A stretch of DNA of 64,000 bases from Bacteroidota bacterium (GCA_021789975.1 JAJYIT010000019.1:1-64000); one strand, 5' to 3'; shown: positions 2,456 through 39,812, counted from the first letter of the stretch. Translations and numbers: made by a program. The notes: generated by a model from the letters alone, not told the origin.

Positions 2456-2520
2456 ATAAACATTCTCCGATAATTTTCTGCGCTGACGATTGAGTAAAGT
2501 AAACAGCCAATTTTGAACAC

Positions 2521-4064: not shown

Positions 4065-4080
4065 AAAGTGCGAATCACTT
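4065..4080. promoter_or_regulatory. AAGTG-N5-CACTT motif before the MFS gene
   Basis: AAGTGCGAATCACTT lies here, overlapping the stop codon of the upstream amylase and ending about 27 bases before the transporter ATG. Its arms form an inverted repeat. Close relatives sit before three other genes (9037-9103, 18459-18473, 42770-42834). Its function is unknown; a regulator site is one possibility. Confidence 0.35.
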
Positions 4081-7000: not shown

Positions 7001-7176
7001 GGAGAGATTGTTCCACCGGAGTTTGGTCCCCAGTTGTTAAACTCACCGGGAACATAGACGATCGATGGATTGTCGGTTGGCTTGTAGTAGAAAGTCACAT
7101 CGACGCTGTCCTGAGCGAACAGAGATCCGGTGAAGATGAGAACAACTGAGGTCAAAGACAGAAATATATTCTTCAA
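4075..7176 (-). CDS. T9SS-secreted multidomain GH13 alpha-amylase
   Basis: A 1033-residue cell-surface or secreted amylase. A signal peptide (residues 1-21) is followed by a CBM48/E-set-like glycogen-binding module with the VPGEFNNWG motif (about 25-135), Ig-like modules (about 145-415), a GH13 catalytic domain (about 430-900) and a type IX sorting domain (about 945-1033) opening with YALSQNYPNPFNPTT. The catalytic set is intact: region I DVTPNHT, nucleophile D620 in GYRFD, acid/base E659 in LLGET and D735 in ENHD. It should attack starch or glycogen outside the cell, with export by T9SS and processing of the C-terminal domain. It lies 24 bases downstream of the SGNH-TPR gene, consistent with one transcript. 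Whether it is an endo-amylase or a pullulanase-like enzyme cannot be told from the motifs. Confidence 0.9.
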   Translation of the reverse strand: MKNIFLSLTSVVLIFTGSLFAQDSVDVTFYYKPTDNPSIVYVPGEFNNWGPNSGGTISPGPGAASVMTIDPSTGIWSRTYWLQVGGPPQANSGAAGEVPGAYQYKFNENGSTWLPDPLNPYQNSQNNSNSILYIKSPTICHFLPNVTSGIVYSQQPLISAYVFPSAKYGVDTSSFVLDVDAESFKIPGTAYNPSTKQLSFLSPIILQNGIRNLKLSVKNLHGDLVSDSTSVTVQAGSIQILNQGGYVTLKTGITIYGSLEDTSIHNVEVIQNGADTTAVQATGGSFSLNASYQPGLNTFVAIAKTAADSTITSTPFTMTYFVNHSPNAVISFSESGNNIILSAKQSTDPDSTQTPSLKFDWGVDSANPSAIAGVQGSNLPSITISQPTIPGEYIFSLVATDSSGYSDTTRSYFTIYSNDSVSFSTYASNPEWAKMGRIYELFFKSFTSQGTIDAAIPKLQYIHDMGFNIIWVMPVMQNNQPIDNGTNTGYNIINFYKVAPEYGTNADFKDFVDAAHALGMKVILDVTPNHTSFNNPMAVNAREYGKYSFYWDFYQHHLITNLNYEPNLPEEETSDKFIYYNGYSDQLLNYNWADPDARAYMDSVYAWWVQNMGVDGYRFDSYWGPHDRANNGNGGENEMGTPTRTLLKHVNPDIFLLGETAGTGLGTQVDYADDGGGLDAAYDWNLYWNAIYNFNFGTSSSISNLNKYVTNFGIDTMGYVPGPNALFMRFMENHDQERIAYQYGSYQKTMPMATVVFTVPGIPEMYSGQEVGFGPGISNQLERERGVIDWNSPGKALLTPHYEKLAWIRGTFPAFSTQQFNRLTVGNPWVYAYTRPYPDQNGIALENFSDTTASVSIALTSNGSSANVVFPGGVVNGKTYYLNDVYDDTTTSIVFSGGAAGFSATLPPYGSAVYVLSDSLIKMTYPVITAIRTGSSAPLPIHYALSQNYPNPFNPTTFIDYRLPANSFVTLKVYDVLGREVKTLVSSTEYAGDHEVVFDGNDLASGVYFYRLSARGIQSSGSFVAVNKMLLLK

Positions 7177-9110: not shown

Positions 9111-12100
9111 TTACTTCAAAAGCAGCATCTTCTTCACGCTGACAAAGCTTCCGGCATGCAGACGGTAGAAATAAACTCCGGTTGCAACGTGCACGCCGTT
9201 GCCGTTCGCTCCATCCCAGACCACTGAGTAGTTGCCGGGTTGCAGCATACCGCTCACAAGTGTAGCGACGTGCTGGCCGAGCACATCATACACTTCCAGG
9301 GAAACGCGTTCCGGTTTCGCAATCTCGTATTCAATCGTCGTTGTAGGGTTGAACGGATTCGGGTAGTTTTGCTCAAGTCCGAACGTCAACGGGACATCTG
9401 GTTTTGTTTCTATTGCGGTGAGCGGACTGTTGCCTAAAACGAGTATCTGTGATTGGTACGGAGCGAGATTTACAGTGAGACTGGAAACTGAAGATGGCGT
9501 AACTGGCTGACTACTAATGTTCAGGACGTCGTTTGCGTACCACGGCTTCGTCGGGTCGAGGTTCAAGCTATCGGCCGGAACTGTGACCACAGCTTTGAAT
9601 TGGCTGCCGTAGAAGTTGTTTATCACGATCACTTTATCGTTACCTTCCATTCTCAGATAGGCATAAACTGAATCTCCAGCAGTCGTCTTGAGTCTCATGA
9701 AGCTTCCCTGTTGAAGTGCCGGATTTGCATCCCTGATATGGATGAGACTTGTGTAATATGGCTGCAGATTATCCGGATCGCTCCAATTGATGATGCTTCG
9801 CTGAGTAGTTTCGCCGACTTCTTGTCCTGCATAGACCAACGGCAATCCCGGCAAGGTGTAGATGAAGGCTGCTGCCATCATTGTCTGCTGACTGCCGAAA
9901 ACATCGATGAACCTCGGCTCATCTTGGTTCTCGAGAAATCTGAGAGGCCGCACAAACGAAGGATACGCTGGCTTTCTGTACCATTCTATCAAGCTGTCCA
10001 AAGAAGTGATGGAGGCGTCATGGTTCATCGTTGACTGCAGGAGACTGTACAGCGACCAATCGTAACCGCTGTCGAATTTCTGCTCAAAGTATTGCAGGCC
10101 GGTCGCATCACATTCACCGAGGAGGAGAATATCCGGTTTCACTTGTTTGAGGTCCGATCTCATGCTTTGTAGAAATGCCGGGCCCGAAACACGGTCGTCG
10201 TTTATTCCCCAGGCAACGTCGAACCTGTAGCCATCGATATTGAAGTTCTCCACCCAGTATTTGAGCATCCTGAGAAGATAATTTCTTACCCAGGCAGATT
10301 CATAATTGATGTTTGCCAAATTCCACCAGGAGCCGAAGTAATTGTACGTTCCGTTCGCGTTCCACATATAGAAGTCATGATAAGGAGAATAGGTTCCGTA
10401 TTCGTACGCATCCTGCATGAATGGATGAATTGCAGAAGTGTGGTTGATAACCATGTCGAGAATTACTTTGATGCCGTATTGGTGAGCAGTCGTGATCACC
10501 TTCTTCAAATCGGCGGGCGTTCCATAATCAGGATTGACGCCATAGTAATTTGTCACCGTATAGCCGGGTTGGTTGGCGGACAACTGCTCGGAGTCATAGA
10601 TCGGCATAAGCCAGATGCAATTGACACCCAGTGCCTTGAGCTGCGGCATCCTTCCGGCCACGGCGTTGAGCTTCCCGGTGAGGCTGAGAGTCCTGACGTA
10701 GATTTCGTAAACCACGGCAGTGTCGACCCACTTCGGATGGAAGATTGACAAGTCCACTGCCTGCGGCAGGCCGGAATCGACGACGACGACTGCTCTCGCC
10801 CATGATGTGTCGAGACTCGTGGCTGCCGTGACATTGAAATAGTATTCGCCATCAACATTTGGCGAAGTGTAAGAAGCGGTGGCAGTGGTGGCGCCTGTCA
10901 AACTAACCGGGGCGGGATTAGAAGGATCTGGCGTCCAGGTGAATGTCGGCGCCAAGCCATCCGGATTAGTTGAGCTACTGGCATCCATAGTCACCGACGA
11001 TCCACTGGTGATGTATTTTATTATAATATCCGTCGAGTGATCGGCATGATAATCAAAGAGAACTCCTTTGCTGGTTGTCGATACTCCCGATTTTGTTACC
11101 GAAACACTTATCGTGTTGATTCCGTCGGTCAACGGCAGTAGAGCCGAAAGCATACCGGAGGAAACCGATACCGTGGTATCATGGACGACGCCGCTGTTCG
11201 AGACGTGTACCACTGCACTTGTTATCGTTGAGTCGCTCACCGTCGCGTAAACTCTCACGGTATCCTCATACCAGTCGCCTCCACCGGTAAGTATTCTGAT
11301 CAGAGGTCTGTTGGCAAGAGTGGAGCTTATTTGCGACGGATCAACGGCGACGACACCACGCCGAACCGTGCCTATGACCGCCAATCGCGGCGCACCGATG
11401 TTGAAACCTCCTATATAGTTCGACAGAAGTCTGTGCTGGTTGCTCACATTGCCCATGAACGCAACGTTATAAACATAAGGATTGTCAGCCTGGGGTGATA
11501 CCGGTATAGCGCCCGAACTGTTTCCAAAGAATGTATAACCGCAGAAGTACCACGGCTCGACATACGAGCCTAAAACGTTTTCGAGATCCGACAGCGCAAG
11601 TGCGAATCTGAATTGGGAAGAAGTCTGCGCATCGCTGTTTACCGATATCGCCGGGCCTCGCTGCAAAGGACTCCGTGAAACAAACAGCACGTTATCCATC
11701 GTGTCGAGCTGCGTAGAATTCGGCGGAGCGATTATCATGTAGACGCCTACGTTGTTCCACTCCGGGACTTTCATATTTACAGCCGGGAGAGCGTCGACAA
11801 AGTCTGCTTGCTTCAGAGTATTTGTAATTTCCAGTGCAAAACGCGTCTGGTTGTCGACGGCTCCCATGTCGATCGTGAACTCAAGTGAGTCACCGGCGGC
11901 GTTTGGCGCAATGTGGATATCATATAGATCACCGGAATGAGCAGCGACTCCGGCCGGATAGGCGTATCCTCCGGGCCCGTCGTCATTGTTTTGGCCGTCT
12001 ACGTAGTAATAGCCTGTCTTAGATTGGTACACTCCGAATGTCAGGTATGAGTTCTTCGCTCTGTTGCCGCCGACGTCTGCCCCAATCACTTCGACGACAT

Positions 12101-13385
12101 GCCTTCCGATTGCAGGGCTCGTCGCGACGGCCGAGATATCATAACCATTCTCAGTGGAGTCAACTGTGTGCTGTACCAGCATCCCATCGACGTAAACCTG
12201 TATAGAGTTCGTGTCGATAGCAGTGCCGCTGTCATTTTCGGTTATGACCGCTCCTATAGGCACTGTACTCACTGGTGACCAAAGGATTGTTCCCTGTCCC
12301 GGACTTGAGAATTCTATTTTCGGAATTGGATTTATTGTCTTGATCACGTACGGCGTGTAGTCGGATCCGATATTCGGATTGTCCGGATCAGGCACGTAGC
12401 CAATAACCGCACTCGCGCCTTTCACGATGAACTGATAGTTGGAAACCACCTGGTTCACAGGGAGCATCTCGTTCAACTTGAAGACGCCGTTTGAATCCGG
12501 ACCTACCATAGGATCAGCACCGTAGAAATTGAAAGGACCCTGAACCGACACTCCGGTAATCCCGTCACCGAGGTATTTGAGATTCGGGCTATGCGGATCA
12601 AATACAAATGTGTACGGGGCATTTACGATAGCGTTGGAGACATTGAAGATGGATGAATCGATTCCGACAGAACCTTTACTATTCATTGCACTCAGCACGA
12701 CTGAGTACCTTCCTGCCAGCAAAGGCGAAGGGATTTGATAAGAAAAGATTCCGGTGGTGGAATCGAAATATGTTGGACTGTTAGAAACCGGAGTGCCGTT
12801 AATTGTAAGCCCGATACTCGACACGACAAGCTTGCTCACAAGACCGGCCGTGATCCTCGCAGAGATTACGGGAGTTTTGTTGTTTATTGTTGAGCCGCTG
12901 AGAGGAGCAAGATCGTATATAGCAGGATCAGTTACATATAGGATCGAATTGTTGTTATTTGCCGCATTCTGGAGAGGATCAAGCGGATCGGGGAACCAAC
13001 CCGCGATGCTCGTGTCGCCGCCAGAAATGCTGTATGTGACAAACTTGTATTCATAAACACCAGGGCCATCGACACCTGAGCCGCCCGGCTTCGTGTAATG
13101 CCCGGTGGTGTCAGGCGTCAGAGGGACGGTGATTTCCCATGTGTCGTTCCCGACATTCTGCATCTGATACGGATGTCTATTGTTGTAAAAGCCCCAGTTG
13201 TTGAATGTACCATTTATGCCGACGCCGGTCTCTCCCGCCTGAAGCGTGTGAGTGAATACGAATGTGATTGGAACGCCTTTCGTGGAGTCAATCTGCGCAC
13301 TTGCTTGAAGCACCATCAACGCAACAAGTGAAATGATCATTCCACTTCCACGAAGGACCTTATTAAGCAATGTCTCATACCGCAT
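9111..13385 (-). CDS. Giant T9SS-secreted GH13 enzyme with glucodextranase-like module
   Basis: A 1424-residue exported protein. After the signal peptide (to about residue 31) come two CBM48/E-set-like starch-binding modules (GTFNNWG near 59-65; QGPFNFYG near 282-289). A region at about 455-690 resembles the C-terminal module of glucodextranase and amylopullulanases (NNDDGPGGYAYPAG). More Ig-like modules follow to about 870, then a GH13 domain (about 885-1320) and a type IX sorting domain opening with GLEQNYPNPFNPTT. Region I is DMVINHT, the nucleophile D1056 in GYRFD, and the acid/base E1091 in LLGEC. Region IV reads ENQDE: the usual His before D1155 is Gln1154. It stands 16 bases downstream of the propeller gene in a run of co-directional genes. 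The target is probably a branched or long alpha-glucan. Confidence 0.88.
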   Translation of the reverse strand: MRYETLLNKVLRGSGMIISLVALMVLQASAQIDSTKGVPITFVFTHTLQAGETGVGINGTFNNWGFYNNRHPYQMQNVGNDTWEITVPLTPDTTGHYTKPGGSGVDGPGVYEYKFVTYSISGGDTSIAGWFPDPLDPLQNAANNNNSILYVTDPAIYDLAPLSGSTINNKTPVISARITAGLVSKLVVSSIGLTINGTPVSNSPTYFDSTTGIFSYQIPSPLLAGRYSVVLSAMNSKGSVGIDSSIFNVSNAIVNAPYTFVFDPHSPNLKYLGDGITGVSVQGPFNFYGADPMVGPDSNGVFKLNEMLPVNQVVSNYQFIVKGASAVIGYVPDPDNPNIGSDYTPYVIKTINPIPKIEFSSPGQGTILWSPVSTVPIGAVITENDSGTAIDTNSIQVYVDGMLVQHTVDSTENGYDISAVATSPAIGRHVVEVIGADVGGNRAKNSYLTFGVYQSKTGYYYVDGQNNDDGPGGYAYPAGVAAHSGDLYDIHIAPNAAGDSLEFTIDMGAVDNQTRFALEITNTLKQADFVDALPAVNMKVPEWNNVGVYMIIAPPNSTQLDTMDNVLFVSRSPLQRGPAISVNSDAQTSSQFRFALALSDLENVLGSYVEPWYFCGYTFFGNSSGAIPVSPQADNPYVYNVAFMGNVSNQHRLLSNYIGGFNIGAPRLAVIGTVRRGVVAVDPSQISSTLANRPLIRILTGGGDWYEDTVRVYATVSDSTITSAVVHVSNSGVVHDTTVSVSSGMLSALLPLTDGINTISVSVTKSGVSTTSKGVLFDYHADHSTDIIIKYITSGSSVTMDASSSTNPDGLAPTFTWTPDPSNPAPVSLTGATTATASYTSPNVDGEYYFNVTAATSLDTSWARAVVVVDSGLPQAVDLSIFHPKWVDTAVVYEIYVRTLSLTGKLNAVAGRMPQLKALGVNCIWLMPIYDSEQLSANQPGYTVTNYYGVNPDYGTPADLKKVITTAHQYGIKVILDMVINHTSAIHPFMQDAYEYGTYSPYHDFYMWNANGTYNYFGSWWNLANINYESAWVRNYLLRMLKYWVENFNIDGYRFDVAWGINDDRVSGPAFLQSMRSDLKQVKPDILLLGECDATGLQYFEQKFDSGYDWSLYSLLQSTMNHDASITSLDSLIEWYRKPAYPSFVRPLRFLENQDEPRFIDVFGSQQTMMAAAFIYTLPGLPLVYAGQEVGETTQRSIINWSDPDNLQPYYTSLIHIRDANPALQQGSFMRLKTTAGDSVYAYLRMEGNDKVIVINNFYGSQFKAVVTVPADSLNLDPTKPWYANDVLNISSQPVTPSSVSSLTVNLAPYQSQILVLGNSPLTAIETKPDVPLTFGLEQNYPNPFNPTTTIEYEIAKPERVSLEVYDVLGQHVATLVSGMLQPGNYSVVWDGANGNGVHVATGVYFYRLHAGSFVSVKKMLLLK

Positions 13386-16334: not shown

Positions 16335-18458
16335 TTACCTCACCAACAACATTTTTCGAACCGAAGTATACTTGCCTGCGATGAGCCGGTAGAAGTACAT
16401 ACCGCTTGGGAGCCCGCTTGCATCGAAAGATAAGGTATAATTTCCCGGTTGCTCTACCCTGTCGACCAGACTTTTGACCTCCCTACCAAGAACGTCGTAC
16501 ACTTTCAGGGTAACATAGCTGGTGGTTGACAGTTGATAGCCGATGGTTGTACTCGGATTGAACGGATTCGGATAATTCTGATCCAGCGCGAACGACCGCG
16601 GCAGTCCGTCTTCTTCGCGATGGACCGAAGTGAACGTCGAATCGTACTGTACCACCACCATGTCCCAGTAAACCAAGCCAGGAAGTGTCACCGATGTATT
16701 TCCTCCGCTCTGAGTGAATGGAAGACTCACCGGCGCTCCATCATAGAAATCCGGAGAAGCGCACCATACAGCAACAACTGTGCTACTTGTATTTAAATTG
16801 ATGGCTAATGGCTCCAGAGTATCAGGCGCTGTCTGTCTACCACCCGTGTCGCGCCACGCAAGTGATTTGACTCCACGCAGGTTGATCAGGTTGATAATCT
16901 GTTTATGATCTTTTGCACTGACCATGCTCCAGATTCCGCCAAGCTGCGGCGTCGAGCTCACCGGAGTTGGCAGCGAACCGGATTGCGCAGACATATTCAG
17001 GATAGAATGCACCTCCCCGTCCCGGAGTAGATTCTCATAAGCAACCATGAAATCATAATCGCGGACCAGATCTCGCTGCAAAGTGTCGGTCATTTGCAGT
17101 CCGGCGGCGGGAAAGTACGAATTATAAAGCATGTGCTCGCCCAATTCGAGATGATCGCCGCCTGCAGCAAAGATTACGGCGTCGGTCAGAAGAACTCCAG
17201 GAGTGTTGAAGAAGCCCGTCCCGTTTGAAACATCGTCCATGTAGGCTGCAAGGACGGTGGCAAGACTTCCGTCGCTGTAAGATGTATTCTGATTAATGAT
17301 ATTGACCAGATCGGAGTACGTCGTGTCAGGAGGCCACACTTCGGTATAAAGGAAATCTACGGGTGACTGCGCTATCTGCTGCTGGCCATATTGCCCGACG
17401 GCGTTCATAACCAGGTCGACATTGAGCTGAGTCTTAGCGTTCGAAAGGAACGACGAAAAGGAATTCGTAAGGTTAACCGGCTGCCCGTCGTAATTCCAGA
17501 GGGAGCCGAGATAGCCAAGCTGATCCACGTGCCACCCGTCGAAAGAAATTGCGAGAAAGACTTTTCGCTCCTGAGCACAAATATAGTTTTGCCAATCGCT
17601 GTTGCTCGGATCCATGATGTACAAGTTGCTCGCCCACTCGGGAGGAGGGAGAGGAAAATATTCACGGGACTGGTGATTCGGATCCGAATAAAGACTCCAG
17701 GTTATGTCGACTCCATCCTGGTAAGCGTCGGCATACGCACCGTAGAGCAAGTTGTAATTCATCGCCTTCATACCATGCTCGTGCGCGGCCCGGATGTACC
17801 CTTCAACCGTCGATAAATAGGTCGTCCGATTCCCGATATCTTTCCACGTCGAGTCCGGATTTTGGACTGTTCCAGCGAGAGGCTCATTATGTTTATATTG
17901 CCAATCGTAAAACTGGAGACCGTTTATGTGATACCGGTTGAGGACCGAAATTGTGCTGTCCATTTTGGATTGACTCATGTACGGATAGGCAGATAAGAAA
18001 CCATAACGTGGGAATTTGTTCCAGGTCGAAGAAACGTCGACCCCGATCGTGGTATGATCCAAAACCGTGTCCGAGCTTTCAAGGAACAGCTCGACAAGAA
18101 CGCCGAAGTGATCGACGTCAGGCGCTTGCCAGGACCATGATATAGAATCCGTACCTGTCAGGCTGATGGTGTCCACACTCATTGCACTGTCAAGATGCTG
18201 GTAGACAATCCGAAGGACCTTCCCAGGCACTACCTGTTTGAAAGTGACAATGAACTGGACCATCGAGAGAGGATTGTACAACGCACGGTCGGTTGAAACA
18301 TTTGCAAACCAATCTCCCTGGTTTATCCCGACAGTCAAATTGGATTGAGCTCCCGCCTGTCCGCATGTTGCAAGCAGGATGAGAACTGGCAGAGACAAAG
18401 ACAAAAACCTGAAACGAGGTACTTCAACTATCATGAAACGGCCCGAATGCTTTGTCAC
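16335..18458 (-). CDS. T9SS-secreted GH66 dextranase-like enzyme
   Basis: A 707-residue protein resembling glycoside hydrolase family 66 (dextranases and cycloisomaltooligosaccharide glucanotransferases), which act on alpha-1,6-glucan. After a signal peptide (about 15-38) and a beta-domain, the catalytic barrel starts near PRYGFLSAYPY. The family nucleophile matches D312 in FDGWHVDQLG and the acid/base E373 in LYTEVWPPD. The C-terminus is a type IX sorting domain (LDQNYPNPFNPST). The protein lacks the inserted carbohydrate-binding module of the transferases, so hydrolysis is more likely. The start is either the GTG at 18458 or the ATG at 18434; neither has a clear Shine-Dalgarno sequence. Its stop lies 185 bases before the propeller gene. 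It widens the block from alpha-1,4 to alpha-1,6 glucans. Confidence 0.85.
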   Translation of the reverse strand: MTKHSGRFMIVEVPRFRFLSLSLPVLILLATCGQAGAQSNLTVGINQGDWFANVSTDRALYNPLSMVQFIVTFKQVVPGKVLRIVYQHLDSAMSVDTISLTGTDSISWSWQAPDVDHFGVLVELFLESSDTVLDHTTIGVDVSSTWNKFPRYGFLSAYPYMSQSKMDSTISVLNRYHINGLQFYDWQYKHNEPLAGTVQNPDSTWKDIGNRTTYLSTVEGYIRAAHEHGMKAMNYNLLYGAYADAYQDGVDITWSLYSDPNHQSREYFPLPPPEWASNLYIMDPSNSDWQNYICAQERKVFLAISFDGWHVDQLGYLGSLWNYDGQPVNLTNSFSSFLSNAKTQLNVDLVMNAVGQYGQQQIAQSPVDFLYTEVWPPDTTYSDLVNIINQNTSYSDGSLATVLAAYMDDVSNGTGFFNTPGVLLTDAVIFAAGGDHLELGEHMLYNSYFPAAGLQMTDTLQRDLVRDYDFMVAYENLLRDGEVHSILNMSAQSGSLPTPVSSTPQLGGIWSMVSAKDHKQIINLINLRGVKSLAWRDTGGRQTAPDTLEPLAINLNTSSTVVAVWCASPDFYDGAPVSLPFTQSGGNTSVTLPGLVYWDMVVVQYDSTFTSVHREEDGLPRSFALDQNYPNPFNPSTTIGYQLSTTSYVTLKVYDVLGREVKSLVDRVEQPGNYTLSFDASGLPSGMYFYRLIAGKYTSVRKMLLVR

Positions 18459-18553: not shown

Positions 18554-20068
18554 TTACTTCAGCAGAAGCATCTTCTTCACCGCGGAGAAGCTCCCTGCGT
18601 GTAGAGAATAAAAGTATACTCCACTCGCGAGCCTCGATGCGTTGAACCTGTACTCATATGTTCCTGCCTGCTGCATCCCGTTGTAAAGTGTCGCCACTTC
18701 CTGACCCAGGACGTTATAGATCCTGAGGGACACCTGACTATTCTTCGGTACTGAATACCTGATTACCGTAGATGGGTTGAACGGATTCGGATAATTCTGG
18801 TCGAGGCTGAAGACAGTCGGCATCACATTCGGCAAGCGAGATATCCCTGTAACAACTGTCACGCTGTCCAGGTAATCGCCGAACATGTTTGCCTGATACC
18901 TTACTACCTGACCAGGACCGGTAGAATCCGGCAGCCATATCTGATGATTGTCGAAATTGTTTGACGTATTCTGTTCGTTCTGCTCGATCAGTCCACCCGA
19001 AAGTACGAATGCGCTGTACATCACCCACAGCTTGTTGACTGAACCTTTCGGGAAGGTGAAAGTACCGGAATATATCGAGTCTCCCGCGACGAGGTCGCCG
19101 TGTGTACCATCGTCATAGAGTCGCAGTGAATGCATCGTATCTGCCCATGCTTGGCCATACAGCCATGACAGCGGCGGCTCACTTCCACCGACAAAGACGC
19201 TGTCGTTTGCAGGGAACGGTTGGCCAGTTACTGCATTCTTTGCTCCGTGCATGTCGACCGACAAAACCACCGTCACTGGAGTCTTGAGCACTCCGGTAAT
19301 ATCATCGAAGAAACGTTCAGGAAGCGTACTGTCTTTTCCGGTGAACGTGTATTCGTAGTTAGCTCCATGAGGACCTTCTTCCCACCCACCGTTAGGCGGT
19401 AGTGGAAAGGCTGTTCTAGTCGTATTGATGAAATATTTCTGACCGAACTGAGACCCAACCGGAGCGATGAGATGAACCGTAGCAGAATAGTGGCCGGGGT
19501 TTAACGGGTTTTCAGTCATCTTTGTACCGGGTCCCCAACCGCCTGGGATAATGTCTCCTCGCAGGTCTACGAAGTCGCCGCTGTCCGGCTGAAAGTATCC
19601 GGTCTGTTCCATCTCAGACATGTTCACCTGGAATGTCCAGTTGGCGGATGCTCCAACAACGCTGTCCTGGTTGAAATAGTACGGACCGACCTGCTGGCCT
19701 CCGGAAACAAGCACGAACCATCGGTTACCGCCTATAGCGTTGGCTGGGACCGTAGATTCCCAGTTGTCGCCACCGTTGTGGGTCTCCACGAACTTGTATC
19801 CTAAGGTGTCACCAATCAAAGAATCAGGCAACGCCATTGTCACGGTGTAGATCGTATCATTTGCGTCCTTCGTCATTAGGCCGGTAAAGCCGCTCCAGCC
19901 ATTGAAGCTGCCGCGTACTTCGACACTATCTGTGTTGATGTTAAACAGTGTGCTCTGAACCTGGACGTTCATCTGGACCTCGAACTTGACAGGGTTCTGA
20001 GCAAAGGCTGCCGGCACTATCATCAATAGCGCCATTGCAAAAGTCACAAGGTATGACCTCTTGTTCAT
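18554..20068 (-). CDS. T9SS-secreted starch-binding-like protein
   Basis: A 504-residue exported protein made of three consecutive beta-sandwich modules that look like CBM20/CBM48-type starch-binding domains: VEVRGSFNGWSGF near the N-terminus, VDLRGDIIPGGWGPGTKM in the middle, and VFVGGSEPPLSW in the third. A type IX sorting domain (LDQNYPNPFNPST) ends it. There is no catalytic motif. The start at 20068 is set by an excellent GGAGGT seven bases before the ATG and by the signal peptide MNKRSYLVTFAMALLMIVPA. It lies 81 bases downstream of the PorV-family gene. The likely role is to hold alpha-glucan at the cell surface, as the SusE/SusF lipoproteins do in Bacteroides, but displayed through T9SS. 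That parallel is inference. Confidence 0.78.
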   Translation of the reverse strand: MNKRSYLVTFAMALLMIVPAAFAQNPVKFEVQMNVQVQSTLFNINTDSVEVRGSFNGWSGFTGLMTKDANDTIYTVTMALPDSLIGDTLGYKFVETHNGGDNWESTVPANAIGGNRWFVLVSGGQQVGPYYFNQDSVVGASANWTFQVNMSEMEQTGYFQPDSGDFVDLRGDIIPGGWGPGTKMTENPLNPGHYSATVHLIAPVGSQFGQKYFINTTRTAFPLPPNGGWEEGPHGANYEYTFTGKDSTLPERFFDDITGVLKTPVTVVLSVDMHGAKNAVTGQPFPANDSVFVGGSEPPLSWLYGQAWADTMHSLRLYDDGTHGDLVAGDSIYSGTFTFPKGSVNKLWVMYSAFVLSGGLIEQNEQNTSNNFDNHQIWLPDSTGPGQVVRYQANMFGDYLDSVTVVTGISRLPNVMPTVFSLDQNYPNPFNPSTVIRYSVPKNSQVSLRIYNVLGQEVATLYNGMQQAGTYEYRFNASRLASGVYFYSLHAGSFSAVKKMLLLK

Positions 20069-20149
20069 TACCTTTACCTCCTTAAGTTGTGTTTTAGTTG
20101 CTGACTTCTTGAAAATGAAAACTGTACCTATCTCCAATTATCACCTCCT

Positions 20150-21157
20150 TCAAATTCCAATGGAAAGCGAAAACTCCTGAATGTTTTTGAGCAATCCGTA
20201 GTTCTCATATGCATAATCAAGTTTCACGATGAGATGCATGCTAGCTTCGTACCTAAATCCGGCGCCAAGGGTCAATCCTTCCTGGCTGTTAGGCATGAAA
20301 AGGGACTTGTATCCTGCTCGCAGGTAAAGAAGTTTATGCCAGGAGTATTGTGCCCCGACGTTCATGCTCTGCAAATTGTCGCTCGGATGCACCGCGTCTG
20401 CTGCCAGAGTCAGTTCGTTGTCGCCAGCCTTGATTACATTCATTGCGAGACCTACCCTAAAAAAAAGCGGGAGGGGGTATGCGTCTGTATAGTATTGCGC
20501 GGGGATATTCTTGTTGTTCCCTTCCATTGAAGGATTTGGATCGTATGCGACCAGCAAGTCAGTTCCACTCATCCGCATGTCGGTGCCGAAATTTGCGATC
20601 TCCATTCCGATCTTAAGATTGTTAAAGGGAGTTATGTAGAGGACCCCTGCGTCCAACGCCCATCCCGTGGCCGACTCATGCCATATGTTCTGCATGATCA
20701 TCTTGGCAGTTCCCCCGATCGAGAATCTGTCGGTCAGGTTTCGTGCATATGTAAGTCCAATTGCCCAGTCGCTCGCGCTCCAAGTCTCTCCGGTCCCGTT
20801 GGGTTGGGCCACGGTTGTCACGAGATCACTTCCGTAGTCGAGCTCAGTCACGCTGAGACCAATCGCATTATCTTCATCAAGCGCTACTACCCCGGCGAAA
20901 TAGTTGAAGCTTGTACCGACCAGGTAGTTCGTGTGTTCAAGGAGCGCCCCAGTCTCGCCGGTTCGCGAGATACCGGCAGGGTTCCAATACAATGCGGAAG
21001 GATCTGTAGCAACCGCGGTGAACGCGCCGCCCATGCCCATAGCAACGGGTCCCGCACCGATACCCAAGAAAGGGGCCGCAGTTGTACCGACTTTGTTCTG
21101 AGCGTATGCCTGCGCTGTTATCAGAACAAGAACTATTGACAAAGCCTTCAACTTCAT
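20150..21157 (-). CDS. PorV/PorQ-family outer-membrane protein
   Basis: A 335-residue predicted beta-barrel with a signal peptide (MKLKALSIVLVLITAQAYA). The N-terminal stretch FLGIGAGPVAMGMGGAFTAVATDPSALYWNPAG, of which GMGGAFTAVATD and YWNPAG are the most telling parts, is the hallmark of the PorV/PorQ (UPF0164) group. PorV shuttles T9SS cargo from the translocon to the attachment complex. The gene sits 12 bases after a 1235-residue exported protein and just before the starch-binding protein gene, so it may be a locus-specific PorV-like partner and not the housekeeping PorV, whose usual neighbours are absent here. It is the right length for the family. Assignment to the family is solid, the specific role is inferred. 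Confidence 0.85.
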   Translation of the reverse strand: MKLKALSIVLVLITAQAYAQNKVGTTAAPFLGIGAGPVAMGMGGAFTAVATDPSALYWNPAGISRTGETGALLEHTNYLVGTSFNYFAGVVALDEDNAIGLSVTELDYGSDLVTTVAQPNGTGETWSASDWAIGLTYARNLTDRFSIGGTAKMIMQNIWHESATGWALDAGVLYITPFNNLKIGMEIANFGTDMRMSGTDLLVAYDPNPSMEGNNKNIPAQYYTDAYPLPLFFRVGLAMNVIKAGDNELTLAADAVHPSDNLQSMNVGAQYSWHKLLYLRAGYKSLFMPNSQEGLTLGAGFRYEASMHLIVKLDYAYENYGLLKNIQEFSLSIGI

Positions 21158-21169
21158 GTGCGTCCTCTT

Positions 21170-24100
21170 CTACTTTATGATTGCAATCTTGCCGAACTTC
21201 TGGCCGTATCCCGGTGCATCCACCATATAGAAGTACACGCCGTATGCGACCGACAAATTTGCATCTGTCGTCAAATCCCAGTTAACGCTACCATTGCCGA
21301 TATCCTGACCCAGCGGCATAGTGAGTTTTTTTACCAACTCGCCGCGTGAAGTGTAGATGTATATCGTGCAGTTCGGCGGGAGATGAATAAAAGAAATCTT
21401 CCGCGTTCCACGTCCGCTGTTGATCCCTATCGGGAGGGGCGGCTCCTGGGTGGTCGCAGCTATATATGGATTGGGAACAACCCTGATGAGACCAAGTTGG
21501 TTCTCGGCAAGTGATTTACTGACAGAATCCGCGTGTGCAGTGAAACTGAAGATGTCCCCTTTTCTGAACGGCTTGTAGGTCAGTATCGAGAAAGCAGCGT
21601 TGTCGTTGGTCGGAAGTTGCAGAGTCGTGTCCTTCCCATTGAACTTCACATACCAACCAAGATTAGGATTACCGTTAGTGTAGCTTGGAATTGTAATTAT
21701 GTCTATGTACTTAACCGGAGGAGACAAGAGCCTGTTGTAAACAACGGCATAGGCAAACTTAGCGTCCTGTCCGGTGGTCAAATCTTTGACTCTGAAGTTC
21801 ACCGGCTGGGCAGGAAGTCCCAGAAGGGGCACGGCCGTGGATGTATCGACAATATTCTGATTGAACTGGATCTGATAATCTGACGGGTCATAGATGAGAT
21901 CACTCGAAGGGAAGACCGCCACTGTGTATGAAGAATACTGTTGTGCCAATGCCGGAGAATTCCAGCCGAAAGCAGAATCTGAGACTGCCAACTGAGTCGA
22001 ATCGTCGGCAATAGTCACTCTCATCCCGTCAAAAAGCGGGGGTTGGCCTGTCGGCTGGATGGCCCCATCACTGATCAGCGTGTCACCATCGGTTACGTCA
22101 ATGACCGAATACGATGTGGTATTGTGAAGGTACGTCACGGGAATCGCAGCCCCGTTCGGTGTGTATGTGATATTGGTGTCGTTGAAAACGACATGAAACA
22201 CATGTCCATCTACATTCCTGAGGGTAAGCGGGTCCACTATTTGGAGGCTTGCCGACCCTGTGCCGTACACCGGATTTTCATGATAGATCGCGCCTCCGTT
22301 AGCCGGCATGTAGCCTGCGACAGGAGCCTGAGGGACGACATACGCAACATTAACATCGGGGTGTGCAACCCCTTCCGCATCAACGCTGACAAACTTCGAA
22401 CATTCAGCAGGGTATATGTTGTCTTTGGCATCGCCTTTTGTAAAGGCAGTCACGGCATAGAAATATCCCTGGCCGTTTTGCAGCCCGCTGTCAACGAATG
22501 TGTGGACGAGTCCTAAACCGTCGCCAAGATAGAAGCGTGGCAACGCTGCAAGTGTCTGCGTTTGCGGAATGAAGTAGCCGGTAATGCCGTCATCAAGACT
22601 GTAAGTTGCTATCGCCTTACCCCCATTTTCGGTGAAACCCGGGCCTGTGGACCTGTAGATCTTGTAACCCTGAAAAGCGTGCTGCAGTGAAGTGTCAGGG
22701 ATGGACGGATCCACGAAGCTCTCTGCAGTACTGTCCCACATCAGGGTGACTTCGTGATCGCCGACAATTGCTACGAGGTGAGGCTTCGGAGGAGCTTTCG
22801 TAAAGTTGTAGTTGTTGTTGTAAATCTCCTGGACAATTTGTTTGTTTGCAAACATCGTGGTACTGTCCTGGCCGAACACGAGCGCAAGGGAGAATCTTTC
22901 TGAATGAAGAGGCGGCATCGGGAAATATCCGGAAGCAAAGGCGAAATTGCCTGCCATGGCAATATCAGGTATGACGTCGAAGTAACCCGGCGTCATGACG
23001 TTCCACATGACCTCGCTGTTGCTCATGTTCGGAGAACCTGCTACTGTGAAATAGCTGAAGCTTGTCAGTCCAAGTTGGTCCGACTCTTCGACGTCGGTTT
23101 GATCGAAATTCGGCTCGCCTAAATTGTCGGTTGGAATTTTATCGCCGACGTAATCGTCGAACTGAGCATTCCAGTTGCCATTCTCATCGCCGGACCAATG
23201 ACTGGCCAACATACCCGGATGCTTCCCGGTAACCGGATCGATGGGTTGACTATAATCAGGCACCCAGCTTGTCACCAGGTGACCCGGCCCGCTGTCCCTT
23301 GCCTTGTCAACCATTGTATTGTTGAGTCCCACACCGGTCATATAATCCTTATATGCCAATGGACGGAGATCTTGCCTGATAACGTTTCCTGACTGATCCT
23401 TAAACACTCTTTCGTAATCGAGATCATGATTTGCGTCGATGAGCCCATTGAGGAGATCGTCATACCCGTCGTTTGGTATCTGCGTTAACGTCTCTCCGTC
23501 ATATATTTTATACGCCTTGCCGAGAGAGTAAACCGTCGCAGTGTCTGTCGGACTTTTCAAAAGAGTATCCAGTTGGACAACCTGCCTCTCATACCTGATC
23601 ACCTGAAAAGGAGTAGTACCGGCCTCCGTGATGATTTCAGGCGTCGGAGTAATCAAGACGATCTCGTTATCCGGCCAGTTAGCATCGCTGCCCACAGAGT
23701 TGATATGAAGGGTACGGCTCGACACATAACTCCTGGTTGCTGAATTGTAGATAAAATCGTTTGACGTGAAAACCGGAGCGCTCGGATCCTCGTTGGAATT
23801 GTTATTATCGATCCCATCGTAAGGATTACCTGGACTTTCGAGGTAAGCGTATCCCACATATCCGACGACGGCCGAAGTTCCGGAGATAAGCTGGCTCAGA
23901 GGGATGTATCCTCTCGCGACGTTGTTGTCGTTTGCCAGCCAACTGTACGCAAGATTATTGTTCAAATCGAAATACGCGACCAAGTCCTGGCAAGGGGTAT
24001 AGTCCCCATTGTTGGCATAGGCGCCGCTGCAAGTACCGATTATAATTCCAAAGTCACTCTTGTCATAAGTAGTCGTGCTTACGTTCGTTATGTCATAGAG

Positions 24101-24877
24101 CCAGAACAGCACATCCTGCGCCTGGATCTGAGACCATTGCAACCCCCGCACGGCGACTGCTATACCGATGCCGTGCCGGTACTTGTTTATGTCGTCAGTC
24201 AATGCATTCACAGTATCACCCGGAGGCGGCATCTGAGTCGAGTCTGGCCAGAACTTGTATCTTGTCCTTTGCTGAACACTATTGTCCTGAGCATCATCCA
24301 TGACGAAGTAGCTTTCTTCATCCGCGTTGAATTGCCCTTTTCCGAAATAGCCGTCCCATAACGATTTTCCCGTCTCGGGATCTTTCCAATCAGGATGGTC
24401 TGCCCATGAACTTGGCCAGCTGTTCGGATCCTGACTCATTGCAACGCTATCCTGGGCAGGGTTCACGTAACCCGGCTCCGGCTCAAATCCCTGAAAGGCG
24501 CCGCTGACGGGATCCACTTTCGTGGTTTGTCCAGTGCGAGGACCGGGCGGTATTTCAACCGCGTGCAAAGTGTCCATCTTACCGTTGCCGAAGTAGTCCG
24601 CAACGGGAAGCTGTACTCCTACCATTGGGCTGACATCACCGATGTAGCTGTCTTTGGATGGATACGGCCAGTACCCGCGAATATCGTTTGCGTTCGTCCC
24701 CGCAATCGACCCATCATTACGAAAGGAGATTGCGACGCGGTTGCCGTTGTGCACTCCGAAGCGAGTGTACAATGCGTTTCCATAATGGGTCTTCGCCCAC
24801 TGGATAAACTCTGGTGATTGACCGAAGGCTGCTCCTGAAATCAGAAGGACAGCGATAGCAGTATAAATTCCCTTCAT
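21170..24877 (-). CDS. Very large exported protein with a divergent C-terminal domain
   Basis: From the ATG at 24877 the product has 1235 residues and a signal peptide (MKGIYTAIAVLLISGAAFGQ). That start leaves 16 bases after the TonB receptor stop; a longer frame would overlap that gene. The central part carries fibronectin-III-like stretches (LVAIVGDHEVTLMWD; YKIYRSTGPGF). The C-terminus lacks NYPNPF but has a related VVPNPYIAA motif, then RKISFIHLPPNCTIYIYT and a final VYFYMVDAPGYGQKFGKIAIIK-like strand, so it looks like a variant sorting domain. The protein is directly between a TonB receptor and a PorV-family barrel. I do not recognise an enzyme in it. A surface glycan-capture subunit partnering the receptor is a reasonable hypothesis, since no SusD is present. 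Confidence 0.75.
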   Translation of the reverse strand: MKGIYTAIAVLLISGAAFGQSPEFIQWAKTHYGNALYTRFGVHNGNRVAISFRNDGSIAGTNANDIRGYWPYPSKDSYIGDVSPMVGVQLPVADYFGNGKMDTLHAVEIPPGPRTGQTTKVDPVSGAFQGFEPEPGYVNPAQDSVAMSQDPNSWPSSWADHPDWKDPETGKSLWDGYFGKGQFNADEESYFVMDDAQDNSVQQRTRYKFWPDSTQMPPPGDTVNALTDDINKYRHGIGIAVAVRGLQWSQIQAQDVLFWLYDITNVSTTTYDKSDFGIIIGTCSGAYANNGDYTPCQDLVAYFDLNNNLAYSWLANDNNVARGYIPLSQLISGTSAVVGYVGYAYLESPGNPYDGIDNNNSNEDPSAPVFTSNDFIYNSATRSYVSSRTLHINSVGSDANWPDNEIVLITPTPEIITEAGTTPFQVIRYERQVVQLDTLLKSPTDTATVYSLGKAYKIYDGETLTQIPNDGYDDLLNGLIDANHDLDYERVFKDQSGNVIRQDLRPLAYKDYMTGVGLNNTMVDKARDSGPGHLVTSWVPDYSQPIDPVTGKHPGMLASHWSGDENGNWNAQFDDYVGDKIPTDNLGEPNFDQTDVEESDQLGLTSFSYFTVAGSPNMSNSEVMWNVMTPGYFDVIPDIAMAGNFAFASGYFPMPPLHSERFSLALVFGQDSTTMFANKQIVQEIYNNNYNFTKAPPKPHLVAIVGDHEVTLMWDSTAESFVDPSIPDTSLQHAFQGYKIYRSTGPGFTENGGKAIATYSLDDGITGYFIPQTQTLAALPRFYLGDGLGLVHTFVDSGLQNGQGYFYAVTAFTKGDAKDNIYPAECSKFVSVDAEGVAHPDVNVAYVVPQAPVAGYMPANGGAIYHENPVYGTGSASLQIVDPLTLRNVDGHVFHVVFNDTNITYTPNGAAIPVTYLHNTTSYSVIDVTDGDTLISDGAIQPTGQPPLFDGMRVTIADDSTQLAVSDSAFGWNSPALAQQYSSYTVAVFPSSDLIYDPSDYQIQFNQNIVDTSTAVPLLGLPAQPVNFRVKDLTTGQDAKFAYAVVYNRLLSPPVKYIDIITIPSYTNGNPNLGWYVKFNGKDTTLQLPTNDNAAFSILTYKPFRKGDIFSFTAHADSVSKSLAENQLGLIRVVPNPYIAATTQEPPLPIGINSGRGTRKISFIHLPPNCTIYIYTSRGELVKKLTMPLGQDIGNGSVNWDLTTDANLSVAYGVYFYMVDAPGYGQKFGKIAIIK

Positions 24878-24893
24878 GACAAACCTTTTCACT

Positions 24894-27755
24894 TTAGAAA
24901 GAGATCTTCGTCCCGATTTCGATTCTTCTCGGAGCCGAATAGAAACTCGGGTTAGTGTAATAATCCTGGATTGATGCGATCCTGTGAGGGGAGTTGGCAT
25001 TTATTAGTGACTGTTCATACAACGAGACGCTTGGAAGCCCGGTGTCGGTGTATACGTTCAGCGGATTCAGAGTATCGAAGATATTATTGATCCGCGCGAA
25101 GATCTGTAAGAAAGAAGTACCACCGAGGCTGAAGTTCTTGTACACCTGTGCATCCAGATTGTAAGTGACCGGTTTCACGGCCGAGTTGTATGCAAGCTCT
25201 CCGACATTAGACACCTGGGCGGGTGTGTAAGGCGTACCACTGCCGAAATTGAAGACCAGGCCGAATCCCCAGTTGCTCGGATTAACGTAGTCGAAAGTCG
25301 CATTGACGGTGTGCTCCTGATCCCAATTAAGCGGGATCAACTGGGTTTCCGGAAGCACTCCACTTGCTACAAGATTTGCTGCAGAGTTTGGGTCGGAGGC
25401 ATCACCCTTGGCGATCTGGAATGTGTAATTAAGGGTAGCAGACCACGAATTCGACAGGCGCTTTTCAAGAGTAACAACAATTCCTCTGACAAATCCGAAG
25501 TCTGTGTTAACATACCTGCTGTATTCACCGGCATTGCCTGTTACAAAGATGATCTCATTCAATGTGCCGGACAGGTTCTTTATATCATTAAAATATCCGG
25601 TAACATCGATTGCTAATTCATTTGTGAGTTGCTGTTCGACCCCCAGCTCACCTTTTGTGGTTTCTTCGGGATTCATGTTCGGGTTTCCAATTATGCCCAG
25701 GAATGTGCTTCCTGCAAGTTGAAGCTTGTACCCCGGACTCTGATAGAGCTGGTCAAACGTAGGCATCTGAAAAAACAGTCCGTAGGAGAAATGTATGATC
25801 CCACGATCGGTTATGGGGAACGCGACTCCTACTCTTGGGCTGAACTGGTATTTATTGGTCGCATTCCTGTACCAGAAAGCCATTCTTCTCTGAAGGGCGA
25901 TCTGATGCTGGTTGGCAAGAGTAACTCCGTTGCCGAGCGGTGCAATGACGCTATCCTGGTACTGCGGCTCGAGAGGTGCATACACATCGGGGTCGGCAGG
26001 GTTCGCCAGCACCCGCCCGTCGGGATGAAACCAGTCGAACCTGACACCGAGGTTAATGATAAGAGATTTGTATTCCATCTTGTCCTGGAGATACGCGGAG
26101 AACTGCTGAGGTTGATGGAAATACATATTGTTATATGGACCTTCCAGGCTCGGCATAACAAAAGGCTCCATGAGGTATGGAGTTGATCCATCTGTCGCCG
26201 GGTCACGTCCGATGTCCTGGGGTCCAATTGCATGAGATAGATCTACGTTGTGAAGAAACAGTCTGTACTGGGTAAACTGCACTCCGGCCTTGATCATGTG
26301 GTGATCAGTAATCTGGCTTGTGATGTCGAACTTGGCGAGGTAAGTATCCGTATTTCGAACATTATTATTCATGTTTATGCCGCCGGAGTAGAAGGTGCCT
26401 TCAGGTTGCTGAAGCACTATCGGCAGGACATATTGCTTATAATTCATAGGGTCCTGTCTCGTAAACAGGTCTGATAAACTGAACGGGTTCGGGTCGTAAT
26501 ACTCACGGTAATCGTTGAAATCGTAGGAGAGATCCAAGGTGAAATACGTTCTACTGCTAAGAGCATCCGTCAAAGAAAGTGTGTTCAAGTATCCCTTCGT
26601 GAAATTGCTGAGTTCACCATTCGGATCGTACTTAAAGTTCCAATCAAAGTCTTTGCCCCGAGAATTGTCAAGTATGTAGTTGTAGGCGATCTGGAATTCC
26701 GGCGAGACCTTGTATGTCAGCTTACCCTGGAGGTAAGCTTCGAGAGAAGGATTCAGCGGCACAATATTGCCATTGCCGGTTTGCTGGATGGTCCACAGTG
26801 CGGGACTGGGGTTTGTCGTGTTTGTAACGTCGCCCACATTGAACTTGTTGAACCCGAAAAAGTCACCTCCGGAGTAATAGTATCGGGCATCGGTGTAGAA
26901 GAAGAGTTTGTTTTTAACGATCGGGCCATCAAGTGAACCTTCGAGCCAATTATCATTGAGAGGGTTTACCGTCTGAAGCCCGTTGAAGATATTGGCATTT
27001 GAAGTGGCATAGCCGCCGGAGTAAGCCGTAACGCTTCCATGAAAATGGTTGCCGCCTGTTTTCGTAGCGATGTTTACGACACCGCTCATTGCCTGACCGT
27101 ATTCGGCATTGAAGGCACCCGTGACGAGCTGCATCTGCTGGATAGCGTTTGTATTAACGTCGATAATGTTTGAACCATCATACGGATTGGTCACCGGGAC
27201 GCCGTCGATCATGTAAGTCACTTCGCCGCCGCGCCCGCCCCTGGCATGCAAGGTTCCGTTCGGACCAGTGTATATTCCCGCTTGCAAGTTGAGGACATCT
27301 TTGAAATTTGTCACCGGTAACGACTCTATCTGCCGACTGTTAACTATCGCGGTCGTAGCCGTCATGTCCTTTTGTACCAACGGTCGTTTTGCCGTGACGA
27401 TTACCGCCTTCGTCGTTACGGCCGACTGATTGAGGTTGAAATCGACATCAGTTGTCAGATCGATGGAGACTTCGTTGTTCTTTATTTCTTCGGACTGGTA
27501 CCCCACGGCACTCGCTCTCAACGAGTAAGTCCCCGGATGAAGATCAAGTATGACATATCTTCCGTTAATGTCCGTTGCTGCCCCCAGGGATGTCCCTTCG
27601 ATGACAACGGTGGCACCGATCAGTGGCTGTTTAGTCGCTGCATCAATTACCTTTCCGGCGATCTTCCCGGTATCGCCGGCGTAAGCTATTCCCGTTGGGA
27701 AGGACAACCAGAAACTCAGAAGGAGAAAAACTGAAAGAGTAGCGATTTTCCGCAT
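24894..27755 (-). CDS. TonB-dependent receptor of the alpha-glucan block
   Basis: A 953-residue outer-membrane receptor. The signal peptide is followed by a carboxypeptidase-regulatory-like domain (GKVIDAATKQPLIGATVVIEG, about 30-115), a plug domain (ESLPVTNFKDVLNLQAGI; MIDGVPVTNPYDG; GVVNIATKTGG, about 130-245) and a 22-strand-type barrel ending in Phe, as usual. Proteins like this import ligands using energy from the TonB-ExbBD complex. It begins 4 bases after the LacI-type regulator and is followed by the 1235-residue exported protein. Its likely substrate is malto- or isomaltooligosaccharide, inferred from the amylase and GH66 genes downstream. It belongs to the Oar-like group more than to classical SusC, and no SusD gene follows. 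Confidence 0.88.
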   Translation of the reverse strand: MRKIATLSVFLLLSFWLSFPTGIAYAGDTGKIAGKVIDAATKQPLIGATVVIEGTSLGAATDINGRYVILDLHPGTYSLRASAVGYQSEEIKNNEVSIDLTTDVDFNLNQSAVTTKAVIVTAKRPLVQKDMTATTAIVNSRQIESLPVTNFKDVLNLQAGIYTGPNGTLHARGGRGGEVTYMIDGVPVTNPYDGSNIIDVNTNAIQQMQLVTGAFNAEYGQAMSGVVNIATKTGGNHFHGSVTAYSGGYATSNANIFNGLQTVNPLNDNWLEGSLDGPIVKNKLFFYTDARYYYSGGDFFGFNKFNVGDVTNTTNPSPALWTIQQTGNGNIVPLNPSLEAYLQGKLTYKVSPEFQIAYNYILDNSRGKDFDWNFKYDPNGELSNFTKGYLNTLSLTDALSSRTYFTLDLSYDFNDYREYYDPNPFSLSDLFTRQDPMNYKQYVLPIVLQQPEGTFYSGGINMNNNVRNTDTYLAKFDITSQITDHHMIKAGVQFTQYRLFLHNVDLSHAIGPQDIGRDPATDGSTPYLMEPFVMPSLEGPYNNMYFHQPQQFSAYLQDKMEYKSLIINLGVRFDWFHPDGRVLANPADPDVYAPLEPQYQDSVIAPLGNGVTLANQHQIALQRRMAFWYRNATNKYQFSPRVGVAFPITDRGIIHFSYGLFFQMPTFDQLYQSPGYKLQLAGSTFLGIIGNPNMNPEETTKGELGVEQQLTNELAIDVTGYFNDIKNLSGTLNEIIFVTGNAGEYSRYVNTDFGFVRGIVVTLEKRLSNSWSATLNYTFQIAKGDASDPNSAANLVASGVLPETQLIPLNWDQEHTVNATFDYVNPSNWGFGLVFNFGSGTPYTPAQVSNVGELAYNSAVKPVTYNLDAQVYKNFSLGGTSFLQIFARINNIFDTLNPLNVYTDTGLPSVSLYEQSLINANSPHRIASIQDYYTNPSFYSAPRRIEIGTKISF

Positions 27756-27759
27756 GCAT

Positions 27760-28839
27760 CTACCTCAATTTTGATTTTGCCGTCACGAGCCCGTCGGAAT
27801 TCCTCAAGGCGCCACAGCTTTCTCTCACAATAAGCGTGGGAGAAAATGTTGTGTGAAGTATTTCCAAATCCGGATTCGACATCCTCGCCACCATGCGGTC
27901 CACGGCAAGTATTCCCATCTGGTACATCGGTTGTCGCATAGTAGTGAGTTTTAGATGACGGGCCAGCTCTATATCGTCAAAGCCCACTATAGAAATATCG
28001 TCCGGTACTCTCATTTCATTTTCTGACAACGCCGCAATTGCTCCCATTGCCTGAATGTCTGATGAGACGAAGAACGCCTTAGGCATCTCGGGACCCATCT
28101 TGATGAAGTCCGACATAGCTTCGTAGCCGGCTTCACGGTTAAACCCATCTTGCTTCATGGTACACCCCGTCTTCACGAGATCTTCGGAAAAAGAGATGCC
28201 GTGGATCTCAAGCGCATGTTTGTACCCCTGCAGTCGCTCGATCGCCGGGGCGCTAACGAGCTGTGCATTGACCATCCCGACCGGACGGCGACCCAGCTCT
28301 ATAAGATGAGTCGTCGCTGCATATGCACCGTCCACGTTTGCCACTGAGATGGAATCGAAGTGTGGCGATACCGTGTCGACAAGGACTACTGGCACATTTG
28401 TTTCCTGAAGGCGCACGATGACTTTCTCAGGAATCTTCATTGAGAAGAGAAGTATCCCGTCCACCCTCCCTCTCTGAAGAGCCCGAGAGACGTAACCTTC
28501 TACTTGATCAATATTGTTGACCCCGTACAGCACAAGGTCGTATCCAAGTTGGCTTATTCTGTCCTGTACGCCCTGGAGAATTTCAATGAAGAAGTAGTTG
28601 GTGAAAAAGGGGATGATTGCGGAAAGTGTTTCGGACTGTCGTTTGGCAAGGCGCTGGGCGTAGGTGTGAGGCTGGTAGTTGAGACGCTCCGCAACGTCTT
28701 TCACCCGTTTGCGGGTTTCAGGCGCAACACTCGGATGATTATTTAGAACCCTCGAAACGGTACCGACACCGACGTTTGCCTCTTTGGCGACGTCGTAGAT
28801 GGTAAGTTTGTGCGTCGCGATCTCCTTCTTTGGAAGCAC
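27760..28839 (-). CDS. LacI-family regulator of the alpha-glucan block
   Basis: A 359-residue repressor-type protein. The helix-turn-helix is at residues 12-35 (LTIYDVAKEANVGVGTVSRVLNNH), the hinge helix follows around 58-70, and a periplasmic-binding-protein-like sensor domain fills the rest (ends with IVGFDDIELARHLKLTTMRQP and LIVRESCG). The first codon is GTG at 28837-28839. It is the first gene of a 12-gene co-directional run of alpha-glucan genes, and its stop is 4 bases before the TonB receptor. Two TGGAAG-N2-CTTCCA palindromes, one over the start codon and one 58 bases upstream, are probable autoregulatory operators. Maltooligosaccharide is the natural guess for the inducer, without direct evidence. 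Confidence 0.9.
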   Translation of the reverse strand: MLPKKEIATHKLTIYDVAKEANVGVGTVSRVLNNHPSVAPETRKRVKDVAERLNYQPHTYAQRLAKRQSETLSAIIPFFTNYFFIEILQGVQDRISQLGYDLVLYGVNNIDQVEGYVSRALQRGRVDGILLFSMKIPEKVIVRLQETNVPVVLVDTVSPHFDSISVANVDGAYAATTHLIELGRRPVGMVNAQLVSAPAIERLQGYKHALEIHGISFSEDLVKTGCTMKQDGFNREAGYEAMSDFIKMGPEMPKAFFVSSDIQAMGAIAALSENEMRVPDDISIVGFDDIELARHLKLTTMRQPMYQMGILAVDRMVARMSNPDLEILHTTFSPTLIVRESCGALRNSDGLVTAKSKLR

Positions 28840-39745: not shown

Positions 39746-39812
39746 CATCGTCCTCCTTTTTTGGATTTAAAGTTAGAATTCCTTTTCTCGGACTTCACTC
39801 TGTGCTCTCTAT

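Follow-up and report, generated by a model that had tools for sequence, protein, structure and literature searches.

The window analysed here, a stretch of 64,000 nucleotides from a Bacteroidota bacterium (GCA_021789975.1 JAJYIT010000019.1:1-64000), carries at positions 18,554 to 28,839 a tightly packed operon, in which the gene of a TonB-dependent receptor (TBDR) is followed by that of a 1235-residue exported protein, hereafter the giant, and by that of a PorV/PorQ-family barrel. These three genes are referred to as the triad. The giant and the last protein of the operon end in tails related to those of cargos of the type IX secretion system (T9SS). The operon is composed as follows:

27760..28839, minus strand: LacI-family regulator, first gene of the operon (PF00356/PF13377)
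24894..27755, minus strand: TBDR of the triad, with CarboxypepD_reg, plug and barrel domains (PF00593, PF07715, PF13715), not SusC
21170..24877, minus strand: giant exported protein, 1235 aa, with a Sec signal, all-beta with FN3-like domains, without a Pfam family
21173..21520, minus strand: VPNPY tail of the giant, about 115 aa, a predicted divergent T9SS type-A-like C-terminal domain (CTD)
20150..21157, minus strand: PorV/PorQ-family barrel, proposed anchor of the giant (NF033709, 212 bits)
18554..20137, minus strand: protein with a T9SS type-A tail (TIGR04183, Por_Secre_tail, 44 bits) and a CBM48-like domain (CBM_48, PF02922, 22.2 bits, slightly below the cut-off of 22.4)

The genes are separated by 4 (LacI-TBDR), 16 (TBDR-giant), 12 (giant-barrel) and 12 (barrel-T9SS-tail protein) bases, the first three gaps being exactly those described in an earlier, sequence-only reading of the region. 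The start of the giant is ATG 24877 (1235 aa), as a longer open reading frame of 1276 aa would overlap the receptor, while the true start of the CBM48-like protein is probably ATG 20068. The receptor scored 73 bits against the SusC model TIGR04056, far below the cut-off of 368, and no SusD was detected in the window with the SusD profiles, which agrees with the earlier remark that none was visible.

To examine the conservation of this arrangement, public genome contigs were searched with the giant alone, blind to gene context, and 80 loci were obtained. They represent about ten groups of phylum rank, among them Bacteroidota, Ignavibacteriota, Kryptoniota, Fidelibacterota, Calditrichota, Caldifarciminota, Stahliibacteriota, Gemmatimonadota and KSB1. 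The upstream neighbour was a TBDR in 77 of the 78 readable loci, always on the same strand, and the downstream neighbour was a PorV-family gene in 66 of 73, with median gaps of 3 bp (TBDR-giant) and 7.5 bp (giant-barrel). The suggestion that the ordered triad is conserved as a unit across genomes of the Fibrobacterota-Chlorobiota-Bacteroidota superphylum was thus borne out, and a homologue lying far from TonB genes was seen in only one of the 78 loci (L037), where the gene is truncated. Of the remaining genes in these loci that encode 300 aa or more, none (0/313) had a TBDR or PorV neighbour of that kind. Since the arrangement recurs in 12 clusters of the source genome and in about 80 foreign loci against this background of 0/313, chance does not account for it. 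Natural fusions of any two triad proteins, which would hint at contact, were not found among the 80 loci. One complete triad (L099) lies on a contig labelled Lentimicrobiaceae (Bacteroidia), possibly by horizontal transfer or mis-binning. No paper describing the triad turned up in the open-licence literature that was searched.

The 12 clusters of the source genome were found by using the giant as a query against the whole genome and reading the surroundings of the matches. Eight of them have the strict order receptor-giant-barrel (C59, which is the window, C74, C33a, C61, C9a, C9b, C47, and C17). In C12 the receptor is separated from the giant by a T9SS protein, in C36a the barrel precedes the receptor, in C33b the giant comes first with receptor and barrel further on, and C36b is a giant-barrel pair at a contig end. 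The giants of the genome are about 700 to 1350 aa long; long and short ones have the tail in common (hhalign 99.8%), their bodies differ, and none of the eight further giants scanned matched a Pfam family. In a tree built from 28 receptors of the genome, a branch with 84/76 support had all of the 11 triad receptors sampled on one side, and none of 500 shuffles was as clustered; receptors paired with a different T9SS protein formed another group. The genome holds 44 TBDR plug matches and 22 PorV-family matches, but one SusC and one SusD only. These form a single pair on another contig (C83, L127:5939-10178; SusC 482 bits, SusD 34 bits), whose receptor is the only one in the genome that passes the TIGR04056 cut-off.

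The three proteins also diverge together. In nine paralogous triads of the genome the distances of receptor, giant, tail and barrel correlated with one another (Mantel rho 0.61-0.77, p 0.0002-0.003), and across 67 triads the rank correlations among receptor, giant and barrel were 0.81-0.86. In this larger set, the partial correlation of receptor and giant body given the barrel was 0.66, and that of tail and barrel was 0.32 given the receptor and 0.57 given the body. The receptor, giant and barrel genes have therefore travelled and duplicated as one unit. Congruent distances would also result from shared inheritance if the three were just a block of outer-membrane protein genes held together by mobility or history and lacking a joint function, but their order persists over several phyla despite scrambled surroundings, and the background genes lack TBDR or PorV neighbours, which makes such a block very improbable.

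The C-terminal stretch of the giant, which reads VVPNPY...FIHLPPNCTIYIYTSRGELV...GVYFY...GKIAIIK, matched the PorZ, PorU and TIGR04183 models weakly, PorZ and PorU best. Nine of ten giant tails tested were below the TIGR04183 cut-off or unreported, and one was above it (L021, 29.5 bits). Because these model matches are weak but the profile of the giant tail aligns with that of the canonical type-A tails of the same loci (hhalign 96-97%), the tail is, judged by sequence, a divergent type-A-like T9SS signal nearest to the CTDs of PorZ and PorU. The barrel of the window clearly exceeds the cut-off of the PorV/PorQ family model NF033709 (90 bits), while it stays under the equivalog cut-offs of PorV (73.6 of 250 bits), PorQ (108.7 of 220) and PorV2 (82.3 of 325), which none of the triad barrels tested reaches. 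Its best PDB matches in Foldseek were PorV chains, 8gl6_F and 6h3i_F, the first from a RemA-CTD-bound translocon. The genome also encodes separate barrels of the housekeeping type, namely a PorV (229.6 of 250 bits), a PorV2-like protein and a PorQ that exceeds its cut-off. This PorV gene (C41, L123:3631-8014) directly follows that of a T9SS-dependent M6-like inactivated metalloprotease (NF052323, 806 bits), which is another instance of a CTD protein followed by a PorV-family barrel.

As giant and barrel share one frame in the window, tail and barrel could be modelled as a read-through of the stop codon (construct A7, alignment of 91 rows). The model had a mean predicted local distance difference test score (pLDDT) of 85.3, a predicted template modelling score (pTM) of 0.84 and a disordered linker. 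According to a simple calculation, a tail without a fixed position relative to the barrel would give a pTM of about 0.65-0.70, and one positioned to within about 3 Angstrom would give about 0.84; the value obtained is thus consistent with docking of the tail on the barrel and supports it indirectly.

Type-A cargos are all served by a single PorV, whereas the gene of a type-B cargo is often followed directly by a SprF-like barrel gene of its own (PMC12618676), and the SprF-like barrel also anchors its type-B cargo (PMC9143113). PorZ and PorU retain their CTDs and are held at the surface by PorQ and PorV, respectively (PMC5562754, PMC8545088, PMC11285876). The sequence-only reading had assigned the triad barrel the role of a dedicated PorV-like shuttle. 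The PorV-family partner was confirmed, but the barrel is, in our analysis, better described as an anchor than as a shuttle, because the giant tail resembles the uncleaved tails of PorZ and PorU, which are permanently held by PorQ and PorV. Were the giant an ordinary cleaved type-A cargo, the PorV-like protein would be its transient dedicated shuttle and the giant would be lipid-linked near, not on, the receptor. The homology of the tail to type-A CTDs, which use the PorV shuttle (PMC12618676), and the PorV of the RemA-CTD-bound translocon as the best PDB match of the barrel agree with this. However, type-A cargos share one general PorV, which is present here too, so that a private barrel for each cargo is unexpected; moreover, the tail is nearest to uncleaved CTDs, and in every paralogous pair its divergence goes along with that of the barrel. 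We therefore regard the cleaved-cargo explanation as rather unlikely.

The dependence on the T9SS and the relation to SusD were followed in a survey of 198 genomes of the phylum, in which SusD genes were tallied up to 11 per genome, so that means can be lower bounds. The giant was present in 98 genomes, 76 of which carry the full-length type. All 98 encode the T9SS translocon SprA/Sov, compared with 56 of the 100 genomes without the giant, that is, the giant is confined to SprA-bearing genomes. The mean number of SusD genes was 1.4 in genomes with the full-length giant and at least 8.2 in SprA-bearing, giant-free genomes (p 9e-17, kinship ignored), a contrast that is, if anything, understated because the tally stops at 11. 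SusD was absent from 33 of the 76 full-giant genomes but from only 3 of the 56 SprA-bearing giant-free ones, and a full-length giant occurred in none of the 39 SprA-bearing genomes with at least 8 SusD genes. In the class to which the window belongs, the giant or its tail occurs in 45 of 49 genomes, and SusD was matched once each in 9. In a family of 43 genomes (f20) and in genome G002 of this survey, SprA is wholly absent and so is the giant.

A second recurring pair was noticed in the source genome. In the window, the gene of another TBDR type (39813-42782) is followed by that of a protein of about 570 aa (38057-39748), both on the minus strand; the latter has a canonical type-A T9SS tail, the only part found by Pfam, and looks like a beta-helix from its sequence. 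The two genes lie side by side, or almost so, at 11 loci of the genome (the window, L109, L110, L111, L112, L113, L114, L116, L117, L118, and L119), and the pair may represent a further substitute for SusD.

Downstream of the operon, further genes of carbohydrate metabolism, among them glycoside hydrolases (GH) and a transporter of the major facilitator superfamily (MFS), lie on the same strand:

16335..18458, minus strand: GH66 endo-dextranase-like enzyme with a T9SS tail (PF13199 608 bits, NF052487 644 bits)
9111..13385, minus strand: GH13 alpha-amylase-family enzyme with a SusG_C-like domain and a T9SS tail
4075..7176, minus strand: GH13 alpha-amylase-family enzyme with a T9SS tail
2521..4038, minus strand: MFS sugar transporter-like protein, candidate for the inner-membrane step (PF07690, PF13347)
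1079..2524, minus strand: GH13 enzyme, candidate for intracellular or periplasmic breakdown

The T9SS-anchored starch-binding and hydrolytic proteins described in the earlier reading are present as the CBM48-like, GH66 and GH13 proteins with T9SS tails. As the CBM48-like T9SS protein, the GH66, three GH13 enzymes and the MFS transporter stand together, the substrate of the window locus is probably an alpha-glucan (starch, a mixed alpha-1,4/1,6 glucan or a dextran-like one). This link holds for close relatives as well, which retain CBM48-like, GH66 or GH13 genes by the triad, the CBM48-like orthologue standing beside it. Other triads probably serve other ligands. Among 124 co-directional triad neighbours scanned there were 31 T9SS-tail proteins, 13 LacI regulators, 12 GH13, 6 glucoamylase-type and 6 CBM20 proteins, 5 sugar-binding proteins of ATP-binding cassette (ABC) systems, 3 GH94, and a single GH66, GH31, GH77 and GH97. 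A LacI gene adjoins the triad or lies near it in Kryptonia, KSB1, WOR-3 and Fidelibacterota loci. Genes of the ABC sugar-importer type follow the triad in WOR-3, Fidelibacterota and Kryptonium (L049:14259-17255, L052:10839-12137, L103:16285-19261), the solute-binding protein being confirmed for L049 and the other two loci being judged by size and family tallies; these importers likely provide the inner-membrane step there.

The body of the giant was modelled from 64 homologues (mean pLDDT 81.5, pTM 0.72) and appeared mostly beta, with FN3/immunoglobulin (Ig)-like domains. The Foldseek matches listed included FN3/Ig arrays and PorZ and PorU of the T9SS, and no SusD or carbohydrate-active enzyme (CAZyme) was among them. 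A profile search of the PDB gave a marginal FN3 match and nothing else, and Pfam found no family in the window giant except a weak FlgD_ig on the tail. A SusD-like giant was ruled out by the SusD profiles and by this mostly-beta fold, SusD being tetratricopeptide repeat-like and mostly helical. A known enzyme or lectin was likewise rejected, as no Pfam, PDB-sequence or convincing fold match was obtained beyond FN3/Ig arrays and PorZ/PorU. Such a build would also suit a scaffold or adhesin at the cell surface, which would keep substrate and T9SS-anchored enzymes organised close to the receptor without gating or touching it. The many T9SS-tail neighbours and the lack of a known sugar-binder fold point in the same direction, and the co-regulation would be explained by all parts serving one substrate. 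On the other hand, no neighbour is as constant as the receptor, which is present even at loci lacking CAZymes, and the triad receptors form their own group, while a free scaffold would need no specialised receptor; consequently, we give the scaffold a low probability.

Considering these results, we favour, at slightly better than an even chance, the triad as a SusD-free glycan-uptake module, in which a surface subunit delivered by the T9SS and anchored by its own PorQ/PorV-like barrel serves the receptor. The module looks like a substitute, kept in many phyla that have been little studied, for the SusC/SusD pair by which the well-known gut bacteria take up sugars. The signal peptide would take the giant across the inner membrane and the T9SS would take it across the outer one, with the VPNPY tail as export signal. 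The tail would then be kept and docked on the dedicated PorQ/PorV-like barrel encoded by the next gene, a protein anchor like those of PorZ-PorQ and PorU-PorV, so that the FN3-like body would lie at the surface over or beside the co-encoded TBDR and help to capture or present oligosaccharides. These would be imported by the receptor with TonB energy, while the T9SS-anchored GH13, GH66 and CBM proteins would cut the polysaccharide outside and the LacI regulator would sense the product. The earlier interpretation is thus partly supported: co-inheritance, co-divergence and the scarcity of SusD fit its view of the giant as the capture subunit of the receptor, and we infer the interface between the two proteins, as well as tail retention and ligand capture.

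Several points weigh against this uptake module. The pTM argument comes from a tethered read-through construct without error matrix, coordinates or negative control, and the strict gene order is broken in some clusters (C12, C36, and C33b). The giant has no carbohydrate-binding or SusD-like fold recognised by Pfam, PDB profile or Foldseek searches, and evident CAZyme neighbours are missing from many triads, so that the ligands may differ. The scarcity of SusD tracks class-level phylogeny, the association being uncorrected for kinship, and co-inheritance alone is no proof of contact between giant and receptor.

SusCD is regarded as the defining uptake machine of the superphylum, and glycan-use loci are commonly sought through SusC/SusD pairs. 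Since genomes of the class of the window have few or no SusD genes, their polysaccharide loci would be missed by such searches. With the triad as a marker these loci can be recognised, and a family of giant proteins without a Pfam entry receives a name. The T9SS would serve not only to secrete enzymes but also to provide one component of a nutrient receptor, each receptor having its private barrel, and what takes the place of SusD can now be tested directly.

Compared with known systems, the triad resembles SusC/SusD (RagAB) in having a TBDR with an N-terminal CarboxypepD_reg extension and a co-encoded surface protein, with CAZymes and a regulator nearby and many paralogous copies per genome. 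It differs in that its receptor is below the SusC cut-off and has no SusD-family lipoprotein beside it. SusD is held on the surface by lipid, whereas the partner in the triad is all-beta with a T9SS tail, having neither the SusD fold nor the character of a lipoprotein; in addition, the third gene encodes a barrel, and a LacI regulator stands next door instead of SusR, a hybrid two-component system or an extracytoplasmic function (ECF) sigma factor system. With PorZ-PorQ and PorU-PorV of the T9SS attachment complex it has in common a CTD-bearing surface protein with a PorV/PorQ-family barrel, CTD retention being presumed for the giant, but those are single-copy secretion components, while the triad pair is many times duplicated together with TBDR and sugar genes. 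The order of a cargo gene followed by its own barrel gene is shared with type-B CTD proteins and their SprF/PorP-like barrels (SprB-SprF, PG1035-PorP), where the barrel is both shuttle and anchor of the cargo (PMC12618676, PMC9143113). Unlike these, the triad combines a type-A-like signal with a PorV/PorQ-family barrel (NF033709) and always includes a TBDR.

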